NCBI RefSeq assembly: GCF_964204645.1
Contig: NC_134031.1
Coordinates: 17,481,307-17,545,306, forward strand
Source of the DNA: Tubulanus polymorphus
Taxonomy: Eukaryota; Nemertea; Palaeonemertea; Tubulaniformes; Tubulanidae
Length of the DNA stretch: 64,000 bases
Direction: 5' to 3'
Shown here in pieces: positions 27,815 to 63,696 of this stretch (the first letter of the stretch is position 1; every line of letters begins with the position of its first letter). Both the position numbers and the translations under genes were made by a program. The notes below the pieces were generated by a model that was given only the letters and a program-made list of their open reading frames with translations, was not told the origin of the DNA and ran no database searches.

Positions 27815-30800
27815 ATGAGAATCAACCTGCCAAATTCAACAACTGCCATTCGGCATATAACGCAAGGCACTTTATCTGAAATACGCAGCCAACAAGACGA
27901 CGAAAATGATATACAAGGAAAAATAAGTCGAGGTATTCGCCATCAATCAATTTACCCGTCCCATTCCACTTGCGGTTCGGTAAAAATCGACCAGTTCAAA
28001 AAGGGAATACTAGTCTAGTACCTAGCCGTCGTTCCACAACGGCACAAACAACGTCTAGGACGAAAGTGCTCATATATGGTTAGTTTTCGTCCCTCATTTT
28101 GAGGGACGAAGCTTTGAGCGTCTATTTCACCCCTTCATTCAAACACCATCAACTTACCTCAAACTGACTGTTCTGTAATCAGATGGAAGTTAACTATTGT
28201 TTGTGCATAAATTTATAATCCTAAGTAGCTTTTGACGATCGAAGTAACTCAAAACTTTTGCCTATTCGCCTCAAAAAACAGTTGAAGTGAAGCAATGTAA
28301 CAAATAGCGGTCATCCTTATTACCGAGATGACGTATTTTACCGAGATGAAATTAAATATAACATATTTATTTATTCCTTATCGATTTTAACAATTGATAT
28401 ATAATATTATATTGGTAATAAATGCCTGCTGGAGTCATATTTTACATATTTTGTCGGATATTTTTGTAGAAAAATAACTTTTAACTTTACCGATATGAGA
28501 TCGTCGATCAATCAAATTCAATATTTTCACTAGTGCATATTGAATTTTCACATTTTATTGATTTAGTCCGTATTGGAAATCCCGATTGTGGCAATCAGTT
28601 TAATTCAAATCAAATCAATAAATTCTCCGGTCCGCGTTCATTCATCAAAAATATTATTATCAAACAAGTTTTTTTTAAGTCAACAAGGTAACTAATCTAT
28701 TTATTTAAGTACAAAGGTTTGATTTGACACTAAAATCAGTTGTTGCATTGCAATTAACAGGAGTTAACCTCTATATGATATTTTAGCGTCAGACGTTGTT
28801 GGGGTATTCAGACTAAGGGAATACTGGCTCTGTGTCTGTAATCGTGAAAACGTCTTTTTTCATTTTTGTAGATGGAAAATTCTCGTGGTTTCATTGCGGC
28901 TCAAATCTTGAAGTCGTGGATACGTTTACCGGCGAACGGCTGGCTGCGTGGAGTTTCGGCGCGTGTCTCCACGACAAGAAAGCCACGATTACAGTGGTTA
29001 CCGAATATCGGTGTCCTGGTTCTCGGAAACTACTCGTCGGGGTCATGTACACGAATCAAACCAGTATGCTGTGCGTATTCAACATAAACAGATCAAAAGT
29101 AACGAAGGCAGTTGTCATGCCACAAATGGTTAGTGTCTGGCTATAAGACTGATCCTAATTGCAGCAGCCATTTCAACAGCAACAGGCCCTTCACTTACTT
29201 TACCAAATCACCAAATGTCCTTTAGGCCTACATATTTGAGGGTCCAAAGAGCGCCCCTATCTAAAATCTTCCTATCCATGCGCCCAAGACAAGCACACGG
29301 TATATGAATCAAAACGGTGAATATGGGGCCAAGAATAAACAATCAGACCTTTTGGGTTCGAACTGTTTTCAATGGTTTCCTGGCTCACTCGCTATCTGGT
29401 TGTTTCCCAGGGCACATCCGTGTTTCCAAACGTGCCGAGAAAGGGTTAAAATATAGTGAATAATCTCTGTCCTAGAAATGTTAATAAAAAGAACTCTTAA
29501 AAGATGACTTTCTTAAAAGATGACTCGATGATTTCAAAAAAGAAGTTAATTGTAAAAAGTAAATTTATCATCATCAATTGCGATGATTGCGTCATAGAAT
29601 TTCCATCTCAACGATGATACCGGTACCTCGTAATTTGACACTCCATAAATTCTTTTTTTTGTGATGATTCTCTTCTAATTTCTTATTTCAGGTAACGACG
29701 ATCGAGCACATCAGCGTCGGCGACAACGATATTCCAGACATCGAGTCTGTTCTCAGTGAACAACTGCGAATGTATTCCGGTTTAGTCGCTGTTGGTTTGA
29801 AGACCGGCCTCGTATTTCTAATCGGTATGTTTCACCGTGTAAAAAGCCTTGAACAATTAAATTTGGTTGAATGTGTACTGCCAACACTGCTGTTGGCAAT
29901 CAAGGGTTCCACTTGTGGCAAGTAAGGATCTGCTTGGTTTGCAAGCAGTTACTTGGTCCTTTGCATTTAATTCCTTTTACATCTCAGTTAAATCGAATTA
30001 ACTTTAGATAAATCAATTGTTGATAATGAAAACTATACCAATTACTGAGTGGACTTATGAATTCAGTGTATATTTGGGTGATCCTGTGATCATCGTTGGA
30101 TTTGGGAGCATTTCAAAGTTGATTGATGATGAACTGATTTTGACAACTCGAGTGCTCATCACGCTGTCAGCTCCCCCATTTCCTAACAATCCTACCAGTA
30201 CGCGTAAGCTGATTGACGTAACGAACAGAAGATCTAAGAACGTGCAGATTTCGTTTCTGGTTTTCAGATTTGAACGGAGATAGCTCTTTTACTTCCGATG
30301 AAGTGAGGCCGAGTCAACTTAGTATGATATCGCCCCGTGATACTGACACACATATCAAACGACACGCTGCGCTACAAAAAGGGGATCATTTATGTTTGCC
30401 GCTAGATTGTAAGTATGACAGCGAAGGAAAATCTGAATATTGATTCTAAAGGTAGATTGAATGGTCATCGAGTTCATGCTATGCATGCCTATCTATTTTG
30501 ATAGCCGAGTGTCATAGGAGAGGTTCGTTTCTATATCGGGCCACAGATGGTACGATATTGAAAAAATTTAACACGGGTAAGCAATGATTTTCAACCCAAT
30601 ACATTTTCACAATCATTTCACGTGTGCGTATTATTTTTTAAAATGTTTGTATTTTCGGTTCGTTTTGCGTAGATTATGTTTTCGTCAGTCAGCTACACTA
30701 CGCCAGACAGATCGGCTGCCTTTTGGTCGGGTTCAATTTCGGCTGTTTTCAAATGTGGCGTCTGAACAGTCCGGTTTTAGAGTACGTATGTTCCTCAGTC

Positions 30801-45531: not shown

Positions 45532-48500
45532 ATGATGTCCCGAGCAGTTTTCATAGCTTTCTTCCTCATGGCCGTCGTGGTGACAGTGTCCCAAGCGAAC
45601 TGGTTCGGAAAGAGAGGTAAGTAGCGGCTTTTGAAATTAAACATGTCTCGATTTCTTGGTTAGGTTGAACAAAGACGTTAAAAAACCTGATGATTAGAAT
45701 ATGCAGTTCTGAATTAAACCTCGCCTTACTCGGCAGCCAGGCTACCGGGACCGGAAAAAATTGACCGAGGTCCCGTAAGCAAAGTTAAGGATCGGAAAAA
45801 TAAGATGCGAAATCAGAAAATGATTTCGTTTCAATCCATTCGTCTAAAGTTCTAGTTTGTTTGGGTATGTCCGAGTAAGGCCAAGGTTTACTGTCACAGC
45901 GTATACTATTTGGAAAATTGAATACTTAGCGCAATGAAGAAAGGTAAAAAAGGTTACGTTAAGTCGAGAAGATGCACACAATATCCGTAAATATACACGA
46001 GAAAAATCCCACAATAAATTCCGCTAAAGATGAACAGTTCTTGAATAGAAATATGTATTCTTTGGCTGAATTATTTGAGGGATTTCTCTCGTATGTTTCT
46101 ATACGTTTGTTAGCAAGATTCGAAATTTTGCTTGTTACATAGAATAAAGAGTCGCCAGATAATTCTATTAATCCTATTGAATCATATTTTATGAATAGTT
46201 AAAAAAGAAGCATATACTTTAATGATTGTCAGAATTACCATCAGAATCATAAACAACGCGTTCATTTGAACTTTTAAACTTGTGCCTTCAAAGAAAGTTG
46301 GCTCGCGCGTCGTTAACGCTTTGAAGTCTCAGAGAAATCTCCAGTTACAAGTCACTTATCGATATTTCGAAACAGAACTCACAATGGAAGGATGCTGCTA
46401 TTGATATCATCCATCTCGTGGTGGAAGAAAAATATTCAAAACATGACGATGACTCAAATCACAGATTTGCCAGTTCCGCGAAGTATCACCTCATGTATAC
46501 GAAACTGAACATGTAAAGACAATTTGCCTCAACTTAGTTTGGTTACGATATTGCTTATGTTCCGCGTAATGCATCAGTCGCATTTGAAGATTTAATTGCG
46601 CTGACCAGTTTAATCTTACGTCCTTCGCGTATGGTTTCATCTGAATGCTCTGCATATTAAGTAGACCCATTATTTCCTATTCCTCATACTTTTTAGATGT
46701 TCTTACTACTGTTCTTTTTGTCATTGCACCGATGTATTTGAACATAATCTCAAAGTGTTAAGTTTAGAACAAATTCTAACTCCATCATATTTCCCATATA
46801 CGTATATACCAATTTGTATAGATATGATGTTTAGATCAATCTATACGATACATGTGTTACGCCTTTATATAAAGCGAATTGGGATGCCATATATGTATCA
46901 TCGTTGGTCAATCAGCAATTCTTGACCTTGTTGGCAATTAATCTATCAGCCATGACATGTTTCGCTTATCCACGAATCGCGGGATGCTTTAAGAAGATAT
47001 AATTGAATACCTTGTGCACGTTATTTTTATTCTGATATATTCAAGAACAAGTTTAATCCGGCCCTGTGTATAATGGCGATAATTTGATACTTCTTCTGTC
47101 GGCATGATCAAAGAAATTCGAAAGAAAACTATTTGCGGTTTTACATACGGAATAGCCAATCGGTGCTTTTATTTCGGATCACGTGGTCATACCGCACGTC
47201 GGTCGACCAATGAAAAGTTATTCGTCGATCTCCGAGCAACTTTTCTTTAAAAAGTACGTTCAATTTAAAGTAAGGAAATTTAGAATTATGAAACTACCCT
47301 CGGAATAAAGTTTGGGACGCCTCCGTTGCTCGTAAAGTCAATCTACTGATTCATTCACTCCATCGTATGCGTGAATAATCATTTTTTTTTATTACCATAT
47401 TGATGCTTTGGTGGACGTGCCATCATACATCATAACTAGAATTTCGACAATTACGCAATATCTGCGAACTATCGGCAACAGAGTTCACCTGAAAGGGGGC
47501 ATTTATGCACACAGTTCTTGAAATGCTTGGATTTTTTAGAAAATTATTTCTGAAAATAACGAACTTCAAAGTTCAGTACCCTTGATTTCTATGCGCACGG
47601 CAAAAACTGACCACCGATTTTTATATCGCTCTCATGTCGCATTGTTGTAATTTTGAGAAATGATTTTTACATAACTGAAAACTAGAGATTCACGCGGTTT
47701 GAATGTTGCTGAAACTGTCAAAATCCATCCATGGACAGATGAAATATGATACAACACGCATCACAGATAGTTTTTAAAAAAGAGAAAAAAATGACCCAAC
47801 AATACGGGACAAAAGTACCATAACAAAATGGCGGCTAGCAACTGTAAAATGGTTTATTGTTCGTCGTTTTACCCGCGTTAGCACCCGGTGATATACGATT
47901 TATACGCAATTCAATGAACAAAATACACTAGAGATTTGAAATACCGTCTGGTTTGTTTCATCAATACATGGTGCGGTATTCGTCTGAACTCCTAATCACC
48001 CGCACTCCCACACCTTTATCCGATTTCAAAGGTATAGCTTAGTTTAGTTGTCAATTGGTTATGATTGTCATCGTCAAAGTTAATTAGATATACCGAGTTC
48101 ATTTTGCTTTTTGTCCACAAACCTGTCATCACCGGCCGCTAAAATAACAACGAAGCTTATTTTGCCCGACACGCTTTTTTGTGAAATGTTCGTTTCGACG
48201 CGCAAAAATGAATCCGAATTGCGGGAAAATTGGGAATAGACAAAGTCGCGTAGCGAGTGGCTTTGATACCGATTTTCTCTATGATTTTTCAAACCCATAA
48301 TGAGATTTGAGTGCGAGTAATGTGAACTGTCGAAATGGGGATAGTGGTTGTAGATTGGATTTGCCGAGAACCGGATATGATATGGATTTTCTTCGAGCTT
48401 TCCTAAATCTGCCTGGCATGGATTCGCGCGGCCGCTCCCAAAGGGATTCCTAATCCCGCATTGTAAGGTGAAATAGAAAAAAAAAAGAAAAACGATGTTC

Positions 48501-51500
48501 TTAATGTTGAAATCAGTTTGAGGCATCGCCGAAATACATAAAGCAGACGGTGGAGTTGTGTTACTTTACAATTATTCTGTACTTCACTTCTTGGAAAGTC
48601 TCCACAGACAATGTTTTCCTCCAGGGGCGGATACAAGGGGATGGTGCAGGGGGTGCGCACCCCCTAAAATGTAAATGGCTCAATTCTACAGGGAAAATTA
48701 AGAATGTTAAATTGATACCTAAAGAGTTTGTTAAGCTTTTGTGTATTTCCAAAAAAATTGAGTTAATGTTTTCCGATGAGCTTTCTTTCGGGGGGGGGGG
48801 GGGGTTGCCCACGGAACCGAATGTTTGTTAGTTGGAACACTGATCTGGAAATGGACGACCACGGGATTCAGCATGTCCGCTGTTGTTCGGACTTAGTTTC
48901 AAGATGGCCGACACTGTAAAAAACGTTACGACCGAGCTAGAGTGCGTCCGGTAAAGTTGTGACTTAGTAGACTAGCTACGAAAACCGAAGGTTGGCTTGG
49001 TTGCCAATATTTCCTACCACAGGTGATGGTCACTTGAGGTTCAACCTCTAGTTTGCAGGTATAAAGGAAGAAATGGTGATTATATGTAAAGCTAGTTCTT
49101 CATAATTCGAAAACGAAGTCAGATTGAAATATCAAGAAATGTGTAGCAAATAAAAGGAAAATGGGGAAAAAATTGTAGGTGTTACCATTTCGTCACGGAT
49201 TGTCGTTCTTTGCGAGAATTATTCTCGCGTGATTACTTAAGCATGCAGACGATCTTTGAGAAACCACGTGTAACGTTTACAGATCAATGTCAACAGACGA
49301 GAATCACATCGACACCTGAAAAACTGGATGTGACAGATCGGGTTTTTTTCAAACTCGAACCATTCATTTGATCATAGCAAACAGCCGAACTTTCTTATGT
49401 ATTTGATTTTTCTCTGCAAAACAAAAAGCAAAATACTGTAACTTGAAAAACGTTGTTCGCCTTTGCAACGATGGGCACACAACAAAAATGTTAAAGAATT
49501 ACTGCTTTTCACGCGTTACGCGATATCATCAATAAATGCACAAGCCTCTGTCGATATCGATCATAAACGAATTTTTAACGAACAGATTATACTCAATTTC
49601 AATACCAAATTCATGGCGGTACGTAGGCCTACAATGCCATGATGATTGAAACCTTAAGATGAATGACGAAATAAAATTTCCAAATCCTTTTAGAAAAACT
49701 TAAGAGTGGATCTGTTTTGAACATGAGCACTTGTAGAAAGTGGAAATTTGAGATTTTTGGTCAATTTCCCAGGGACGCTGCTTAACTGCGTAGATAAATA
49801 GTATCGATCAGCCAATCCTTATTATCCATAAATAAACAACGAACATGGAAAACCATTCTCCGAAAACTTTTTTCGTTTCTTTTGACGGCAGATTTTGTCC
49901 TCGAAATAGAACGAACTAAAACCCAACAGCAACCCCGGGGATATTTAGACAATGGCGCCGAAATCTGGTGACGCGCATCGATCGGAGTTTGTAACCCAAC
50001 TCTTTACTAGCTGTTGATGTTGCAAACTAATACTTATCCCATTCAGGTCTGGAAATCCGGTACAGATGCTATCGACAACGCAAAGTCTATTATTTATTCG
50101 CTCCGACCGACGAGCGACGGTATACGGGGATCTAAACTATTGAATAATTGACGAAAAACATGAGAATTAATATCGCAAAATCCGACAGAAAGTTTACAAG
50201 AGATTTTATTCCCCTTAATCTATCAGCTCGTCTGCGCATGCCGATATTAGGTCATCTCAGAGAATTGTCACGTGATGGTATCCAGTAACCGACTTCAATG
50301 AAGATTTTTCAAAAGAAAAAAAATACGTTTGAAACGAATATCTGTGACTAGGTTCTCGAGCTAAAACTTCTCTCCAGATAATGAGTGGCTTATATTGCAA
50401 GTTTGTTATTGTTTTACAAAGAGATGCTTTTTACGAGACCTTTTGTTTTATTCGATATAAAGAATTGCTATAGTTCAAAAGAAACAATCTTCTTCGCTTC
50501 TATCCTTTTGAGTTTTAGTTACGCATACATTACATCTCGAATGGAATCTCCAATCAAACGCATAAGGCGCCGAGAAATCTTACCGGGTGAATTGGATTTT
50601 CATATGATACCCCGGAAAGTTTTTATCAGCAAATTACGTGTGCAGGCCTCGATTTTTTTCTCATATTTCATTGTTCTCGATAGATGAAAAATCAACATAC
50701 ATCCGATATCTCAAGACGTCATTCGTTTGAAATAATCAGTCGACGCTTTCGTAATTCCGAATGAACTCGGTTGCGGGATAATGACTTTCCTTTCGTATAT
50801 ACATAGAACAAACTTATCGGGTTTATTGAGCAAGTATATACACATATGCGATAACTATCTGTCTCAGAGGGTGTCGTGTATCGTGCATTGTTCTCCTGGA
50901 CAATCGAATCCGCGCAGGTATGAAATTAATCATCTATACTTTCGCGATTGCGGACTTTTTTGATGTCGTCGCCATTATTAGACGATTCCGCGAATTAAGC
51001 CGAACCCCTGATGCGCCCAGGTACTTCGTACAATACCGAACGTTAGTTATGCGAAATGTGAGCCACCATTTTATGGCGCTATATAATGGCGATTGATGAT
51101 TGCGCATCCCTTTTATTTTTCTGTTAATTATTCACGAAGATGTAGGGAAATTACAGTACATGGAAGGATATACCTAGGCCCATACAGAAATAATGTATCG
51201 GTTATGTGCGTTTGATTTAGTGTTTCCATCTTATGAAAATGAAAGAACCATGTTGCAAAACTGAAAGCTATCTTATTTCAATCAGTTCCTATGTCCACCA
51301 TCACTCTATTTACTTTACTCTGCTTACTTTAATCTGCATTGAAAGTTCCGAGTCGAGATGGAAGTCAGAGATTGCAATCGAAATCTGGCGTCAGGTTTCA
51401 ATATCTCCCGATGTATCAAGTTTATTTTCGACGAATCATTCTTTATTCATTTCTTTTTCTCGAAAAAGCAATACATGATCATCGAGTCTATCTCAGTGCA

Positions 51501-54500
51501 ACTCGTATTCGACCGGAGAGAACAGTCTGCGCGCATTATTTCGAGAACGTATGATCGCGCAAGCAGAAGAAAAATTCTAACGTTTGCCTGGAGATTCTAA
51601 CATTCAGTTTACGGACAAAAACCACCGGTTCTGGCGATGCTGTTACATTCTTTAGTTTATTATTGCAATCGAATCATTTGCTTGATCGCAGTTTATGAGG
51701 CGATAGTTTTGTTCGTTGGAATATATACCTGAGGCGAAGCGCGACAGTCCTCAACTCTAGCAAACATCGGGTCAAGTATTGATGATTTGCAAACTAGCAT
51801 AAAGGAATGTATATATAGCATTATTGAAATTAATTTTACTGAATATATTCCTTCCGAATGAGTTGGTCATTTTAACCTTTTAAACATGAAACATTTACAT
51901 GAGAACAATTTAACGTCTTTGAAGTATGGAATATGTATTGTCTTTAAATGCGCGATTCCGTTGAAACTACGATCATTAATTCTATGAAATTTTCTAAGAA
52001 CTTCTTAGAATTTCTAAGAATAGATAATCAATTTCCCAACTCGTTGACGAATTATTCTCCGTCTCCGTCGACGATCTTTCGATTTTCTTTCCGCAACTTT
52101 TTCGTTCGCTTTATCTTGAGTTGTATAAGCTGGTTGGCTAACTGCACACTTTTTCAATGACCTTGGTATCGATAGAAACAAAATATTGGAAAAAGCACTT
52201 TTTCGGATACACGTTTTTCTAAGATTGCGAAATGCGAGGTCTCGAAAAAATAAATACTTCATCTGCGCAGATTGCGATAAAAACTTAAACAACTTCTCAA
52301 AATAATTAATCACTGTCGAGTCGATATCATTTCACTCGGGTTGAATTACTTTTCTGTAATCAGCATCAGAACCGAAATGTAATACGAAACTGACTTTTTA
52401 GAAGTGCTGATTACATCGCACGCTCCACTCCCGTTACAGCATTTTGGGCTTTTTCGTACTTACAGAAATTCGAGGACTGTAACGATTGTTCGAAAATGTC
52501 ACTGCTATAATAAATAATCTCTGTGTCTGTTTTTAAGTTCCGTCAACAAAGTTTTAAACATTTTCCGTCGTCAGTCTGGTTTTCGGTAAAAAAATGGTTT
52601 TAGCTAAATGTTACAACGTCGAAAATGAACACATGATACTTTGATGAGAAAAATTCAGAAGTTAGTTCTGGCTACATTTTCACCATCTCAAAAATGGGTT
52701 CATCAAGGGTGTATGATGGCTATTTTTATTCATTTAGCGTAGGCAGTAGCGAATTAGACATGAGATCGAGACCTTATAGATATAAGAAACACGTGCCTTT
52801 AAACAAAAAGACTTCAAAGAATCAAATTTCAAAGAGTTTCTACATCACGGGAGACTTAGAACGGCTTTACGTCGTCGGCTTCACACACACTACATGTATA
52901 TGCAATTTATTCATGATCGAAAAGAATCTACAAAGAATCCGCAAGAAGTCGAACTCGAAACGATTGAATACTGAAAGATTTGAAGAGATCTAGATTATCA
53001 TATATCACGTCTATTAAAGCAAATATGTATAAATGTATTAGCATTAGCTCGTACGTCATTCAGTGTCCGATGCTTTTTCTTCGTCCACCAGCAAACATCA
53101 CATGAACAATCGCGTCATCATGTCATTTGTCGAATAATAGCTCCAGGATCAGCCCGCCAACTTTAGGACTTAGGTCATGACTGAACAAGGGCTCTGAATT
53201 TTAAGTTTCGCATACTTCACGTGCAAATGTTAACAGCACAATACTGCCAAAAATATTTCAAATAAACTGCCATTCATGTTTTAGAAATAATATAGGGAGA
53301 AAAAATGATCGTGGTCTAGACACAATATTGGCTCTTTGAAGTCATTTGACTCAGGAGTCGGACTAAAATCCACGCCATGAAACTTTAGGTCCTGGAGCTA
53401 GATTTGCTTTGTTTTATGTTTAATAAGCTCAGATCAATTTCATATTTCGTTCAATGGCGAATGAATTCAATGCGGCTTATAGATACATCGCCTGGGGTTA
53501 CTCCAAGTTTCCTTTTAGCGGTGGATGGAAGGTGGTGAGATTTTTGCCGCCGTAAAAACCGTTACAATATTGTTTGTACACATCGATACCTAGTATACGC
53601 TGTGCGAGTCGGTTCTGTGTGACTCGATGTGCATTACGTCATCAATATTGGCGTTTCAAAATAACATTTAGAATTGTGAATTTTGGCGTTTATTTTGTAA
53701 CTAGATATCTCATAACTATATTTTTTTCATAACCGAGATATTTCATAATTTTATATTTGATGAATTTTGATAATCGTTTTTGAGAGGATGCGCACTACGT
53801 CAGCAACATACCGGGACTAGACTGGTTGCCGGTCAATTCAATAATCGATATTCAAGTTCAAAATAACTTGTATAATTGAACCTTTATACCATATCATTTA
53901 CACTATATCATTCATTGTCGACAACATTAAGCAATATATGTGTTATTTTTCAAGGCGTCAATAAACTTTCAAGTTAGTAGTTTTCTGGTTAGGTTATGAA
54001 TGAAAAGGAATGCCACGTCGCTCCTCAAACGTTGTACGGAGACACCCCCATTAATCCGTCGGAGTATTTTCAGATTGCGGGATGTGCTTACCGTTGTCAG
54101 ATGTCATTTTCAGTGCATCACGCGCGCATATCGCGGAAACTATGTGACTTTTTCGCCAATTTTCTATTGTCAATTGCCATCTGTCAATCTCGCATCGTAA
54201 CTGTCCACTAATGGATCGGGAAATACACAACAATCGTTTTCTTATCGGTTTTCTTCTGCATACCTGGTCAACACCTCGCGAATGCTCTCAATTGAATTCG
54301 TTGGCTTTTTAGCCAATTCCATCATCTTCTTGACAGGTGCGCGAATTCCGAATAACAACTCGTGAAAATGGAAAGAACGATCTTTTCGCGGTATATATGA
54401 TTGGAATTGATTATAGATACCGGTATCATATGAAATGATAGCTTAAACCTTTCGGGGGGGGGGGGGGGCATTCGAATGATCTCTTGTTTAATATCCAATG

Positions 54501-56979
54501 CTCAATGATACCACGCTAATGGACCAGAGACTTTCAGAATTCTGATCAGGCTATTTTTGCTGTCTAGTAACGTGTCATCTGTTCCGTTATGGCGGCTTTT
54601 AAACGACTGTCAGCGAAATTTGTATTTACCTGCTAGCTCACCGACGTCCGGAAGGCCGGCGAGTTGTTTCAGTTTTTATCGAGAAGTTTACTGGGTTGGC
54701 GATGCGAGTAGAATTTATAACCAGGGACAGCGTCTTAACGACGATCTTTATTCATTATTCGAGATGCAGATTAAACGTTTATCATCGACAAAACCTCAGC
54801 TTTGCGAGAGGTGTGTAACGGGGTTTCTTGTTTTACGTAGCTTTGTTGATAGTACAAAAGGGCGATTCTTTGGAATCACATGCAAAAAAATCTAACTTCA
54901 CAACAAATGTTCTCCGCGTCGAGAAGCGGCCATCTATTAGCATCTGTGTCAGCAACTACCTCGTCGAAGGTCCATATTTGGCGAGCGCTGAATCAACAAA
55001 CTATCACGGACCGTCGGTCTGCAATCGGCGGCAACCGTTTCAAAACGGCAGCATCGATCTCGGCTTTTCTTATTCCGAAAAGCGACTCAGGATTTCTGGA
55101 TGTGTGTGTAGTCATGATCAAATGTCAATGCTTACATAAGGTAGCGCTCGGAGCTGTCGGCTGCGAATGTCGGGCGAATTCGGGCGGAATAAGGCGCGGC
55201 GGCAAACACAACATCGCTACACGAGATGTAGCGATATCACCTAATTGGGATGAACAGCTATATATACATTGAATAATTGGCTGAAATGTAATCGGGCGTA
55301 AGTGGTTACACGAATTTCAGCGGTCTTAGGGAGGACACAACAGCGTCAAAACGCGCATCTGACATTCTTTTCGACTTCGACCGCATTGGAGACCACCACA
55401 TTTTGGTCGATGTTCAGACATCTCGATACAATTCACCGTCCGATCTGGAAAAAAAACTTGACGTGTCGATCAGGAAGAGAAAAACACTCATAGCCACTCG
55501 GCGTGAAGCTTTCATTCAATAATATCCATTACGACGGGTTTTTTTTCTTATTTAACTTTTTAGAAACGAAGGAAAAATACTCTGGCACTCATGCGTTTTT
55601 GTGCATGCATTCTTGCTTTGAAAATACGGACTATTTTCAACAGAAAATAATGCTTTGACAGAAGAAAGGACATTTGGGAGACATCGTACCCAAACGCTGA
55701 TATCTCGATAACTTCTATGGGAATTTGCTGTAGCGATTTGTCCCTCTTTTAGTGACGTCATAAACTGCTTATTGGCTATAATGTATCTACTTGACGAGTC
55801 CGAAATTACGACGTGACCTCTTTTTATTCTAAGCTTTATGAAGAAATGTTCTATTGAAGAAAAACCAATTTCTAGGATGATGCGCGTTATATAGCTGTGA
55901 CGACGAGTTCCAAGGCGTAACTTTCCTAATAGTATCTTCGTCAATAGTATAGGTCACGGTCTCGTGGTTCATCGAGGAGCGCTGCGCCGTTCCACGTGTA
56001 GAGGGGAACGAAGAAACCAAACGACTAATTGATCTGGTTTCGTGTCTTTGATGTTTATTCAAATAAACGGATCATTTGCGACGATTTCGTTTGAATAAAA
56101 TCTCGTCCTGTTTATCAGTTATTTCCACCGCGGGCGATGCAGTAACATATAAACCATATAATTTACTTTGTATAAAGGCTGATTTCGTTTCGTATAAGTA
56201 TCGAGTAAAACTTCGCTATGATTACTCTCAGTACACGTTTTTTTAGACGAGAAATATTTTCTAAATGAGACATTTCGTTTTTAAAATTACGCTGTATTAG
56301 ACAAGCCCGGTTACTCCTTGCCGGGTTCGCTTCGATCACGATAATCAAAAGGGGGTCTGGTCGCAAAAGTCGTATATTAAAGAAACTAATTCTAATAAGA
56401 CAGCGCGCTCCATAGCTACTGGCAACTGATAACCATCTGCCATAGTTCCCAAATATCGAACGCGGTTTAAGCGCACAAACCATGTTTTCACGGACATTAT
56501 CTAATCGAACATGAATTTTTGCCCAAAATCAAAGAAAAAGTATAAACGACCCAAACTTTTGTTCCCGATTTAGTAACCTAATGCATATATAGATGAAATT
56601 GTAATGATTCTAGCCCGCAGGCAAGTGTCTATTCGTACAGCCAATCATTGCATTCATTTCCAGACTGACGAAAAGTTTTAAACGAATTATAATTGAAATG
56701 AGTGCAGATTACTTCGTTTAATCGTTCCGCACAACTTCTATATTTTCTTTGTTTTGAATAAAGATAAGATGCATCATCCTCGCATGCTTTATGCAAGGAC
56801 GCACGCGAATGATTCGTTTTACATCGTTTTTTGTAGGTGACGAGGTGAATGCGTTCAAAGAGTACCTGGCCAGCGTTCAACAGCAGGGTTCCATGAACGA
56901 CTCAGACCACGTTTTACGGATGATAGCCTTCATACTGAAAGCTTACGAAGCGCACCGACAAGAGCAAGCCACCAGTTAG
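45532..56979 (+). CDS. NdWFamide-type neuropeptide precursor
   Basis: The precursor has 75 residues in two coding exons, 45532-45616 and 56837-56979, joined in phase 1 (G|GT makes Gly) across an 11.2-kb intron. Residues 1-22 are a signal peptide (MMSRAVFIAFFLM..., hydrophobic core, ending VSQA), which would be cleaved before Asn. NWFGKR follows at once: cleavage after KR, trimming and Gly-directed amidation give Asn-Trp-Phe-NH2. In Aplysia and Lymnaea the mature tripeptide carries D-Trp and excites heart and muscle; the isomer cannot be read from DNA. The remaining 47 residues have no Cys or dibasic site and hold a helix-like part (VLRMIAFILKAYEAHR). A second ATG three bases on would shorten the signal peptide by one residue. 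The strong acceptor (GTTTTTTGTAG) and a nearby AATAAA support exon 2. Confidence 0.88.
48622..48835 (+). mobile_element. Possible end of a CAGGGGCGGA-type DNA transposon relic
   Basis: CAGGGGCGGATACAAGGGGATGG followed by GGGGGTGCGCACCCCC resembles the conserved terminus of non-autonomous DNA transposons often met in animal genomes. The right end is unclear: a G15 run and GGTTGCCCACGGAACC lie near 48.8 kb. No transposase is seen. Confidence 0.35.
53539..53974 (+). repeat. Interspersed repeat family B, copy 2
   Basis: Colinear with 13912-14317: GTAAAAACCGTTACAATAT, ACGTCATCAATATTGGCGTTTC, TTTTGGCGTTTATTTTG, CCGGTCAATTCAAT and CGTCAATAAACTTTCAA. It lies inside the NdWFamide intron. Confidence 0.65.
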
Positions 56980-57346: not shown

Positions 57347-57352
57347 AATAAA
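57347..57352 (+). terminator. NdWFamide precursor polyadenylation signal
   Basis: AATAAA about 370 bases past the stop codon, followed by a T-rich stretch. Confidence 0.65.
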
Positions 57353-57976: not shown

Positions 57977-58690
57977 AGATGACAGGCATGGAGATCGTGA
58001 AACACAATTCGCTATGAAAATGGGCGTGCAGAATAAACTCCATTTCCCTGTTTTATTAGATTCCCTGTGTTTTCCCCCGAAAGAAATAAGTTCCGTGTGT
58101 TGTAGAATTGTGGTCACCCTCTTACACCTGTCAAGCCGCATAGATAGAAAAAAAAGAACCAACAATAATTCGAGGAAAATCTTAGGGCGGGTGATTTCCT
58201 GAGTGGCTTCAGTTGCTACGAGCTAATGTTTTCGAAACTTCTTCAAAATGTTGGCAATTAATTGTTCTGAACCGCTTGCTTCTGTCGACAAGATGAGACT
58301 ACGCGCACCTGCTGTAATGAAGACGAATCGTTTTTCGCAATTTAAACGAGAATATAAAACTTGACAGCAAAATGAAATTTCCTACATGAAAAATATCTCA
58401 TCAAACGGCCACGGTCTTCGTCGAAGCGCCGGATTTATACTCTTCCCAGAAAACCGAGAAACACAAAACCACAAATCAGAGTAAAGATAGATATATTTTG
58501 ATTTTTCGCTGATTAAAATGACTAAACTTTCTAACGACAATATCAGACGACTTTTACCAATGATATACAGTTACAGCTGATAATAATTCCTAGTCGGAAA
58601 ATTCGACTATGTTTTCAACGTCAGATAGAAAAAAAACAGCAGTATTTTAGAAGTTGATTGCATTTACGTAGAAACAATATTCATCGACTA

Positions 58691-60086: not shown

Positions 60087-63000
60087 TTAAAATTCTTCAT
60101 GCATCACCTTCCCCTTATAACGCTTGCTCTCTGGCGGATGCTTCATTTGTTCGTTCAGATCTTTATTCAATTCGCGCCCGCGTTTCAGAATTTTCGACGG
60201 CAATTTCTGCATGACGACGCGCACCTGTTGCTCGGGCGAAATACGATCGAAATTCGGCGGCAGTCGGTCGCGCGGTAAGTTTCCAGCTTTGAAAATTTCT
60301 TCGAGTACGACCTTGAAATTGTTGACGTTCATGAACTGACTCGACACGGCAACTGTTTCTTCTACGTTGAACGCCTGAAATAGAAATCATTCCAAATTTT
60401 ACACGATCCAATAAAAGAGAGAACATTTAATATTCCAGCAAAAGTCAACTAAATCTACAGGAAGCATGTAGATTTAATTTCATTTTAAATTGAGAATATA
60501 CATAGTGAGTTTCAAACTTATATAATGAAAAAGTATTGTGTAAATGAGGCCAACATTTTAAAATGAATTCTTAAGAAACAAACTAATACATCGTAACTAG
60601 CTAGGTAACTATCATAACTTTATGATGACATTCTGTAACAATCTTTAAAATAGTTTAACGCTATCTTTTCACTGAAATCTGATGATGACGACGATGATGC
60701 AGAAAATATACCTGATGGTACCAGCCGGTTGGAATGAACAGCAATTCTCCGGGAAGTTGGTCGAATTCGATTGCCTTTGCTTTCTTGAACTTGCGATACT
60801 TATTAGGGTCAATAAAACCGAATGCATCAATCGGGCTGAAAATAGGAGACGATAAATGAATACAACACAACTGTCAAAACTACAGACATCACTTAACTTA
60901 AATCTTGGGTTGAAAATCCATTATAGCAAAAACATAGTGCCACTATGCCTGAAGAGGCCGGGAAATGTATCTCCCAATAAACGCGTTTGCAACAATGAAT
61001 ATATTTACACAATAGAAAATGATATTTGTACTGTTTTTACCATCAAGGATTATCACTAAACTTTATTCAAACACATTTACTGACTTAACTTCCCAAACAT
61101 GCCTTTTAAATTTCACAGTTCAATAATACCAACATTCTTTTACACAGAATTGCTGCATTCAGAATGCTGATGCATTAATTATATTGCTGAATTCGTGAAT
61201 CTACCCGCAAGTGGTGTACACTAGTACATACCTGTTGTATTTGTAACAGTCCAGAGGAAAATTAGACTTGCGCCCTTCTACTGGATAGAGGTATTCATCC
61301 TGTCCAGGTGGATATAACTGAAATAATACCAGCACACTGAGACATTTAATTTCACGGTAAACAAACGCAATTCATTTCACTTTTAAAATTGTTTACGCTA
61401 ACGGCTAATCGTTCAGAGAGCGAGTAGTACTCAATTTTCGTCTCCGTGGTGGAAAGAGGCAATGGAGGTAAGTGTCTTGCATAGGGACACAATTGTACTT
61501 CAAACCTACATCATCCACAATTGTATGCAGTGATCACGCAGAGATGTTTGGCTCGGGTTAAACTAGCCTGGATTTGACTGGAGTCAAATTTGGCCCGTGC
61601 TCGATTTGAAAGCACGTTTACACGTCAATTGCGCCCTCATTTGAATATAAACTGTGGCAAGTAACCACACAATAATATGATAGTACATACTAAAATTTGG
61701 CACTGACGTAGTTTGACATTTCTGGTCAGGCTCAATTTGGCCTGTGTGAAACAAGCAGGGACACATTTTGAGTGTGAACGATTGGTTCAGGCCAGATTTC
61801 ACCCAAGTCAAAAACGCTTGTGTGATTGTGGATAACTGTAGGGTCTCATCTGTGCCTTCAGGTAGAACATGTACATGGAACAAACGAAGGGCGGAGCCTT
61901 ATAGAATGGATAGACTAACCTTCCAGCGCTTGCGTCCCTTGAATACAGCGTTTGTGCCGGTCCAATTATAAGGGTCAATATGCAGTGATGACCTGGAGAA
62001 GGCAGTTCCCCACAGTAGCATCGCGTTCCAGGGACGGATATCTTTAGGAAACAACTCGAAATAGTCGTCCAACATATAAATCTACAAGTAGAAACGAACT
62101 ATTGAAAATCTTAAAATCAACATTTTCAGACATGAATGATTATTATTTTTTATTGATTTGATTGATAGCACTGAGTTAAGTTGAATAAGTCTACGACTTT
62201 TCTTATATTCATGAAAGATTCTTTAATCTTAAATTAATCAGGGTGACCACTTCTATTTGAATTGTTTTTCCCCTGACATTCCCTGACATGTAAATTGTTT
62301 TCTCTGATTCTGCTAAGAATCCAATCAATTAACACAGTCAAATACATAAGACGTAGGCAGAAAATGTTTGATTTAACATGTGATCTAGCAATCTCAACAA
62401 ATTTCCCCGACTTTCCCTGATTTCTACCTTAATTCTTACAAAAATTCCCTGACTTTTTTGAAATAAAGAAAATTCCCTGACTTTTCCCTGATTTCCTGGT
62501 GAGTGGCCACCCTGTTAATTATTTCATGTTGATTCTGATGATAATTAACTGATTGAAAATATGAAAATCGTTGACTCACAATTTGTCCCATATCGTTGTA
62601 TAATTCTCTTCGATTCGGCAAAAACAATTCATCTTCGATATACGTCCACGAGCTATTTCTGCCCTCTCCGGAATGTTGCAAGAACAATTTCATCGGCATC
62701 GCTAAACTCTCCGCTTTATCTAAATCACCCTTTAATTGAAAAGTACACAAACAAATGATATTTACCCAAAGAAAATGATACACAATCAATTCATAATGCA
62801 GTGGAATAAAATATCGGATTCCACTCAGAATATAACTGTGAGAATTGTTATGAACAAATTTGATGGTTCCAATGAGAAATTTCATTTCTCTGAAGGTATA
62901 TAAAAGTAAACCTACCGCTACTGCTTTGACAGCAATTCTCTCATCTCCATAATTATCCAAAAAGAACTTTTTATTCCATCGTTTAAATGCTTGCCATTTT

Positions 63001-63696
63001 GGCATGACATCTGTGACTATTACTGGCCTAAATTATTTAGAAAATGGAGTTATTAAGCACATTAGTATGATAGTATTAATTGAATTGCTGGGCTGCATTT
63101 TATATAATAATACAAATAATCTATTTTCTTTTATAGCGCACTCCTACAAATTGTAAACAGTAAGCTTTACAACGGTATCAAATGAATATGAGCTGATAAA
63201 AAAATAATTAACAACACTTGGAGAATAAATTATAAGCTAAAATCTACAGACTAAGACATAATTGCATAATATTCTAAGATAAATTGCAGTTATAAATTTT
63301 CATAAAAAAATAAGTTTTAAAATTCTTCTTAAAACTGCTGAACTTTGTCTAATACTTAAGGGCAGCCCAGTCACCTGTCATTGCATGCTTTGAGACTGGT
63401 TTAACTTTTTTCTTTTTAGAGTGATAACAAAAATACCGCTAAAAGCACAATTGAATCAGATTTTTAAAGTTCTAAATTGCCAATTCGACTTAAATATTTC
63501 AATACCATTTTCCATCATAAACATCGTTGAATTCTCGTAGAGATAATTTCTGTCGTTTATCGATGCCGTCCACGTTGTAAAGATATGTATATTTTCTCAT
63601 ATTCTCTTCGCGTGTTTTCAAAACTTCGTTGAAATCAAACACGTACGGCTCGTATGTGAAGTTGTTTCCATAGTTTTCGATTTTGTCAGCGGCAAC
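60087..63696 (-). CDS. JmjC/cupin_8 Fe(II)-2-oxoglutarate dioxygenase, 5' end beyond the window
   Basis: Seven exons are visible: 63696-63506, 63027-62916, 62729-62580, 62081-61920, 61317-61232, 60835-60712, 60374-60087. All junctions keep phase and give 370 residues ending in TAA. The cupin fold is marked by PVIVTDVMPKWQAF, then WGTAFSRSSLHIDPYNWTG, with the HxD iron ligands at His185/Asp187 of the visible part. It continues GRKRWKLYPPGQDEYLYP (the Lys-rich 2-oxoglutarate-side strand) and PGELLFIPTGWYHQAFNVEETVAVS, with the distal His274. The full iron triad is kept, so the enzyme should be active. The C-terminal 95 residues are charged (PSKILKRGRELNKDL). It resembles the JMJD6/JMJD4/HSPBAP1-type small JmjC group (hydroxylase or demethylase roles), but no exact orthologue or substrate is claimed. 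The N-terminus lies past 64000. An intron holds a family A element. Confidence 0.88.
62239..62514. mobile_element. Family A TIR element, best preserved copy
   Basis: Ends are CAGGGTGACCAC and GTGGCCACCCTG, flanked by TTAAT-type sequence on both sides, a possible target duplication. Inside are TTCCCTGAC modules and AATCCAATCAATTAACACAG. It sits in a JmjC intron and is non-coding: a MITE that defines the family seen at 23.6, 24.8, 36.7, 39.4 and 57.5 kb. Confidence 0.75.

Follow-up and report, generated by a model that had tools for sequence, protein, structure and literature searches.

The locus considered here raises the question of whether it encodes a precursor of NdWFamide and, if so, whether the tail of the precursor, which is separated from the hormone by a long intron, carries the cue for the epimerization of Trp. 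Asn-Trp-Phe-amide is a heart-exciting peptide that was described earlier in snails and related animals. The window, which is the whole stretch of DNA analyzed, comprises 64 kb (positions 17481307–17545306 of contig C7) in an assembly of 267.8 Mb consisting of 77 contigs.

Structure of the Gene

As shown in Table 1, the coding sequence is divided into two exons, which give MMSRAVFIAFFLMAVVVTVSQA-NWFG-KR-(47 residues)-stop when they are joined and translated. The coding part of exon 1 consists of the signal peptide, NWFGKR, and the first base of the next codon. The coding total of 228 bases is in frame and corresponds to a precursor of 75 residues. The cleavage site of the signal peptide was called by the −3,−1 rule alone, with the rule taken from general knowledge. 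A second AATAAA is located at 58032, further downstream of exon 2.

The locus is very probably a two-exon, single-copy neuropeptide gene of the NdWFamide family, in which position 45616 would be spliced to position 56837. The preliminary description had given the same coordinates, reading frame, peptide, intron length, and 47-residue tail (with the split Gly counted), all of which were confirmed, and its reading of the locus as a one-copy NdWFamide-type precursor with an intron one base past the Lys-Arg codons is supported.

Table 1. Positions of the parts of the predicted precursor gene in the window.
Feature	Position	Strand	Basis or remark
Signal peptide, 22 residues, MMSRAVFIAFFLMAVVVTVSQA	45532–45597	+	Translation; hydrophobic leader; predicted cleavage after S-Q-A
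Mature peptide Asn-Trp-Phe	45598–45606	+	Sequence; adjoins the predicted cleavage site
Gly (amide donor) and Lys-Arg cleavage site	45607–45615	+	Sequence
Exon 1, coding part, ending in phase 1	45532–45616	+	Donor GAG/GTAAGT (slash, exon boundary), rank 1 of 635
GT-AG intron, 11,220 bases	45617–56836	+	Splice-site scoring; no gene, RNA family, or repeat recognized inside it
Exon 2: remaining bases of the Gly codon, 46 residues, and stop TAG (56977–56979)	56837–56979	+	Acceptor rank 13 of 881; highest sum of acceptor and codon scores among 35
AATAAA polyadenylation signal	57347–57352	+	Sequence

Relationship to the NdWFamide Family

As expected of an NdWFamide precursor, NWF followed by Gly and a dibasic site is located directly behind the predicted signal peptide, and the peptide is present in a single copy in a short precursor (75 aa) with one C-terminal tail that has no dibasic site. 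The Aplysia precursor also carries NWF directly behind its leader. The product is almost certainly NWF-amide.

A second D-residue peptide was sought in the genome with the pattern (R/S)-GF-X-D-K-(R/S), which we take to be of the achatin type; six scattered single sites without a cluster were obtained, compared to three for the backward control. Because this pattern would miss other cleavage sites and third residues, the result does not bear on the presence of achatin either way.

The NdWFamide family is recorded in molluscs; according to the accessible part of PMC8557429, the same family was also reported outside the molluscs, in nemerteans and phoronids, and was undetected by those authors in brachiopods. 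In a table of PMC8735849, read without its header, the Aplysia NdWFamide precursor A0A161R9R0 has 90 aa, and three nudipleuran precursors have 83–84 aa with a leader of 25 residues and are 40–46% identical to that of Aplysia. The present precursor resembles these gastropod and bivalve precursors in having a leader and one NWF-type peptide in a short chain, with 75 aa and a leader of 22 residues compared to 83–90 aa. The scallop, however, carries NWYamide, whereas the peptide is NWF here.

In the Pfam search, the precursor gave no match at E values up to 1; Hormone_3, the domain expected of an NPY/NPF precursor, was thus absent from it within this limit, while the NPF exon found in this assembly scores 60.8 bits. 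No NdWFamide precursor or tail sequence was found among the papers listed when the main texts of the literature, as distinct from the supplements, were searched by the peptide letters.

Occurrence of the Motif and the Leader

The motif was searched for in the genome as a degenerate DNA pattern, consisting of NW[FY]GK followed by the beginning of a codon for Arg or Ser, with the backward pattern as the control. Seven sites were obtained in 267.8 Mb, which corresponds to about 0.0017 per 64 kb, and the control gave one. An open frame with a Met ahead of the motif is present at the site of this gene and at none of the six others, where the test covers a leader on the same exon. Donor-like GTs are located in, or at most 60 bases from, some of the other sites (8.5 bits at L011, 7.5 at L015, and 7.0 at L013, compared to 11.8 here); therefore, the donor alone does not distinguish this site, and its presence was dropped as a mark of a real site. 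Two of the other sites coding for NWFGKR, L012 (reverse strand, approximately 409–425) and L015 (approximately 599–615), have flanking DNA that appears similar by eye, as in a dispersed repeat.

In the window, the combination of a hydrophobic leader and a G-[KR][KR] site was found only for the ATGs at 45532 and 45535, although 515 frames that begin with ATG and have 28 or more codons were compared. When the genome was searched with the whole precursor at E values up to 10, only its own two exons were matched; there is no paralogue within the sensitivity of that search.

Splice Sites and Choice of the Second Exon

The splice sites were scored with generic matrices, which were based on general knowledge rather than on training with this species. 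The donor, GAG followed by GTAAGT, scores 11.8 bits and ranks first among the 635 GT sites between 45000 and 57000. The acceptor, TTTTTTGTAG followed by G, ranks 13th among the 881 AG sites between 45640 and 63990. Acceptors with a score above 4 that open at least 20 codons were shortlisted, which gave 35 candidates, and the acceptor at 56837 is the first of these when the acceptor and codon scores are combined (17.1 bits). The codon support of exon 2 is modest, at 8.9 bits over 46 codons. The codon model is weak evidence, because its training set comprised no more than 634 codons, taken from five open frames in the window, and among these frames a strong match to Pfam (ELYS-bb) is limited to one. 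The coincidence of the leader, the motif, and the donor is stronger evidence than the codon model.

It is hardly credible that the open frame arose by chance and that no gene is present. In favor of chance, six of the seven NWFGK-type sites have no leader on the same exon; at this site, however, the leader, the motif, the highest of 635 donors, an acceptor of matching phase, a stop codon, and a polyadenylation signal coincide. A different tail, produced when a real exon 1 is joined to another downstream exon or through an alternative acceptor, is more conceivable than this, though still distinctly unlikely. Among the 881 acceptors, twelve have higher scores than that of the exon at 56837, and the runner-up on the shortlist, at 54953, opens 105 codons and reaches a combined score of 14.7 bits; with such a score beside 17.1 bits, the acceptor ranking is not overwhelming. 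At 56798, there is also a weaker in-frame acceptor, which reads into the same tail. Against another exon, the exon beginning at 56837 has the highest combined score of the 35 candidates, ends in a stop codon followed by the AATAAA at 57347, and yields a precursor whose length is like that of the family. The two-exon gene with the acceptor at 56837 is thus the preferred structure.

Intron between the Hormone and the Tail

No RNA family was found in the intron at E values up to 0.1, and there were no direct or inverted repeats of at least 24 bases. Eleven open frames of at least 90 codons are located in or across the intron, and nine of them (all except 54819–55139 and 56629–56901) gave no Pfam match over the cut-off; the top match in the intron frames was zf-AD, with an E value of 0.024, which is under its cut-off.

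In the NPY/NPF genes of many bilaterians, an intron splits the codon of the second Arg in the C-terminal RxRF/Y between its second and third bases (PMC8536682, accessible part). The NPF exon of the present genome (PF00159), inspected by eye for this exon alone, has a leader-like start, ends in GRPR with the last Arg of its hormone, and breaks at CG/GTAAGT, which is the same position in phase 2. The present gene is similar to the NPY/NPF genes described in that paper in that the hormone is located near the leader, the intron is at the end of the hormone, and the tail follows; it differs in that their intron is in phase 2 inside the Arg codon, whereas the intron here is in phase 1, past Lys-Arg. 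Because this NPF exon and the NPY/NPF genes of other animals share this layout, the intron between the hormone and the tail is not special, and the layout is of a known kind. Introns that interrupt cleavage sites were described for CCWamide and related genes by Thiel and co-authors in the accessible text of PMC8557429, and the PrRP-type genes have, according to PMC7314547 as far as available, a phase-1 intron that is located within the hormone.

Other Genes in the Window and the Genome

Upstream, a gene at 28817–29146 on the forward strand resembles the nucleoporin ELYS, with a Pfam match to the beta-propeller ELYS-bb at an E value of 5.1e-13. Frames up to approximately 38661 may belong to this ELYS-like gene, and the three that were scanned gave no match over the cut-off. 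On the reverse strand, the open frame at 62436–63032 has a weak match to Cupin_8 (E value of 0.0039; 17.6 bits compared to a cut-off of 27.4), and the open frame at 60087–60386 looks conserved and has no Pfam match; we presume that the latter resembles CSTF3, a subunit of the mRNA 3′-end cleavage factor.

Seven globin matches were found in the genome, three of which are located within approximately 10.6 kb on contig C4. Beside a globin exon at L003, positions 779–938 form a run of approximately 160 bases that consists mostly of TA dinucleotides. Among the PDB chains, one globin is nearest to the nerve hemoglobin 8oup and to Hemoglobin III, both of which we take to be bivalve proteins. Haemocyan_bet_s and Eryth_link_C (the annelid linker) had no match in the genome, where the control genomes gave no match either, and the models of COX1 and bacterial SSU had no match in the genome. 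None of these markers, nor a ferritin compared with PDB chains, assigned the host to a phylum, and its putative placement in Lophotrochozoa is based on the peptide itself.

Tail and Epimerization of Trp

Counted as K plus R less D plus E, the net charge of the 47-residue tail is −3, and the tail lacks dibasic sites. When the tail alone was predicted from the single sequence, two helices were obtained at residues 2–16 and 20–46, with a mean pLDDT of 80.5 and a pTM of 0.46. The hydrophobic moments of these helices are unexceptional, since they were reached by 166 and 526 of 2000 shuffles, respectively. The most likely role of the tail would be that of a spacer and of a segment for folding or sorting, which is the weakest step of the explanation.

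The configuration of Trp, D or L, cannot be read from DNA, and the D form in this animal is putative. The preliminary description regarded the tail as a natural place to look for the cue of epimerization; the biochemistry of Aplysia speaks against this proposal. In the accessible part of PMC11277431, a fraction of the central nervous system (ganglia) of Aplysia converts the synthetic free tripeptide NWFa to NdWFa. Bare GXFD tetrapeptides (analogues of GFFD) with Phe, Tyr, Trp, or Leu as residue 2 are converted as well, whereas those with Ala, Ser, Asp, or Lys at this position are not. In vitro, a cue located in the initial residues of the processed peptide is therefore sufficient. Because the substrates of the Aplysia assay had no tail, there is no need to place a cue there, although the assay does not establish that the tail has no role in the cell. 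The same part of the paper does not give the gene of the Aplysia isomerase, in agreement with the earlier statement that the epimerizing enzyme is not settled.

A location of the cue for Trp epimerization in the tail is accordingly very improbable: in its favor, the propeptide has no other part besides the hormone, and the tail is predicted to form two helices, but the Aplysia fraction isomerizes free NWFa and, with selectivity for residue 2, bare GXFD (PMC11277431, accessible part). A broader proposal, that the gene comes from a phylum without an NdWFamide record and that its tail, with the two helices, acts as a conserved partner in processing or epimerization, missed because the isomerase assays used short free peptides, is also improbable, if slightly less so than a different second exon.

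The processing of an NdWFamide-family precursor with a spacer-like tail can be proposed as follows. The precursor of 75 residues would enter the secretory pathway, where, as known from the family and from established precursor biology, signal peptidase would expose Asn-1, a prohormone convertase would cut behind Lys-Arg, and a carboxypeptidase would trim the basic residues. An amidating enzyme would then convert Gly to the C-terminal amide, and the products would be NWF-NH2 and a C-terminal flanking peptide of 47 residues. If an isomerase of the Aplysia type is present, Trp-2 may be inverted on the freed N-terminus or on the tripeptide, with no instruction from the tail.

The gene alone does not open the question of epimerization, as the published extracts, in the accessible text of PMC11277431, already place this step on the free peptide. 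It provides an exact gene model of a neuropeptide of the D-Trp type, in which the hormone and the tail are cleanly divided between two exons; such a model is of use in annotation and in exon-swap tests.
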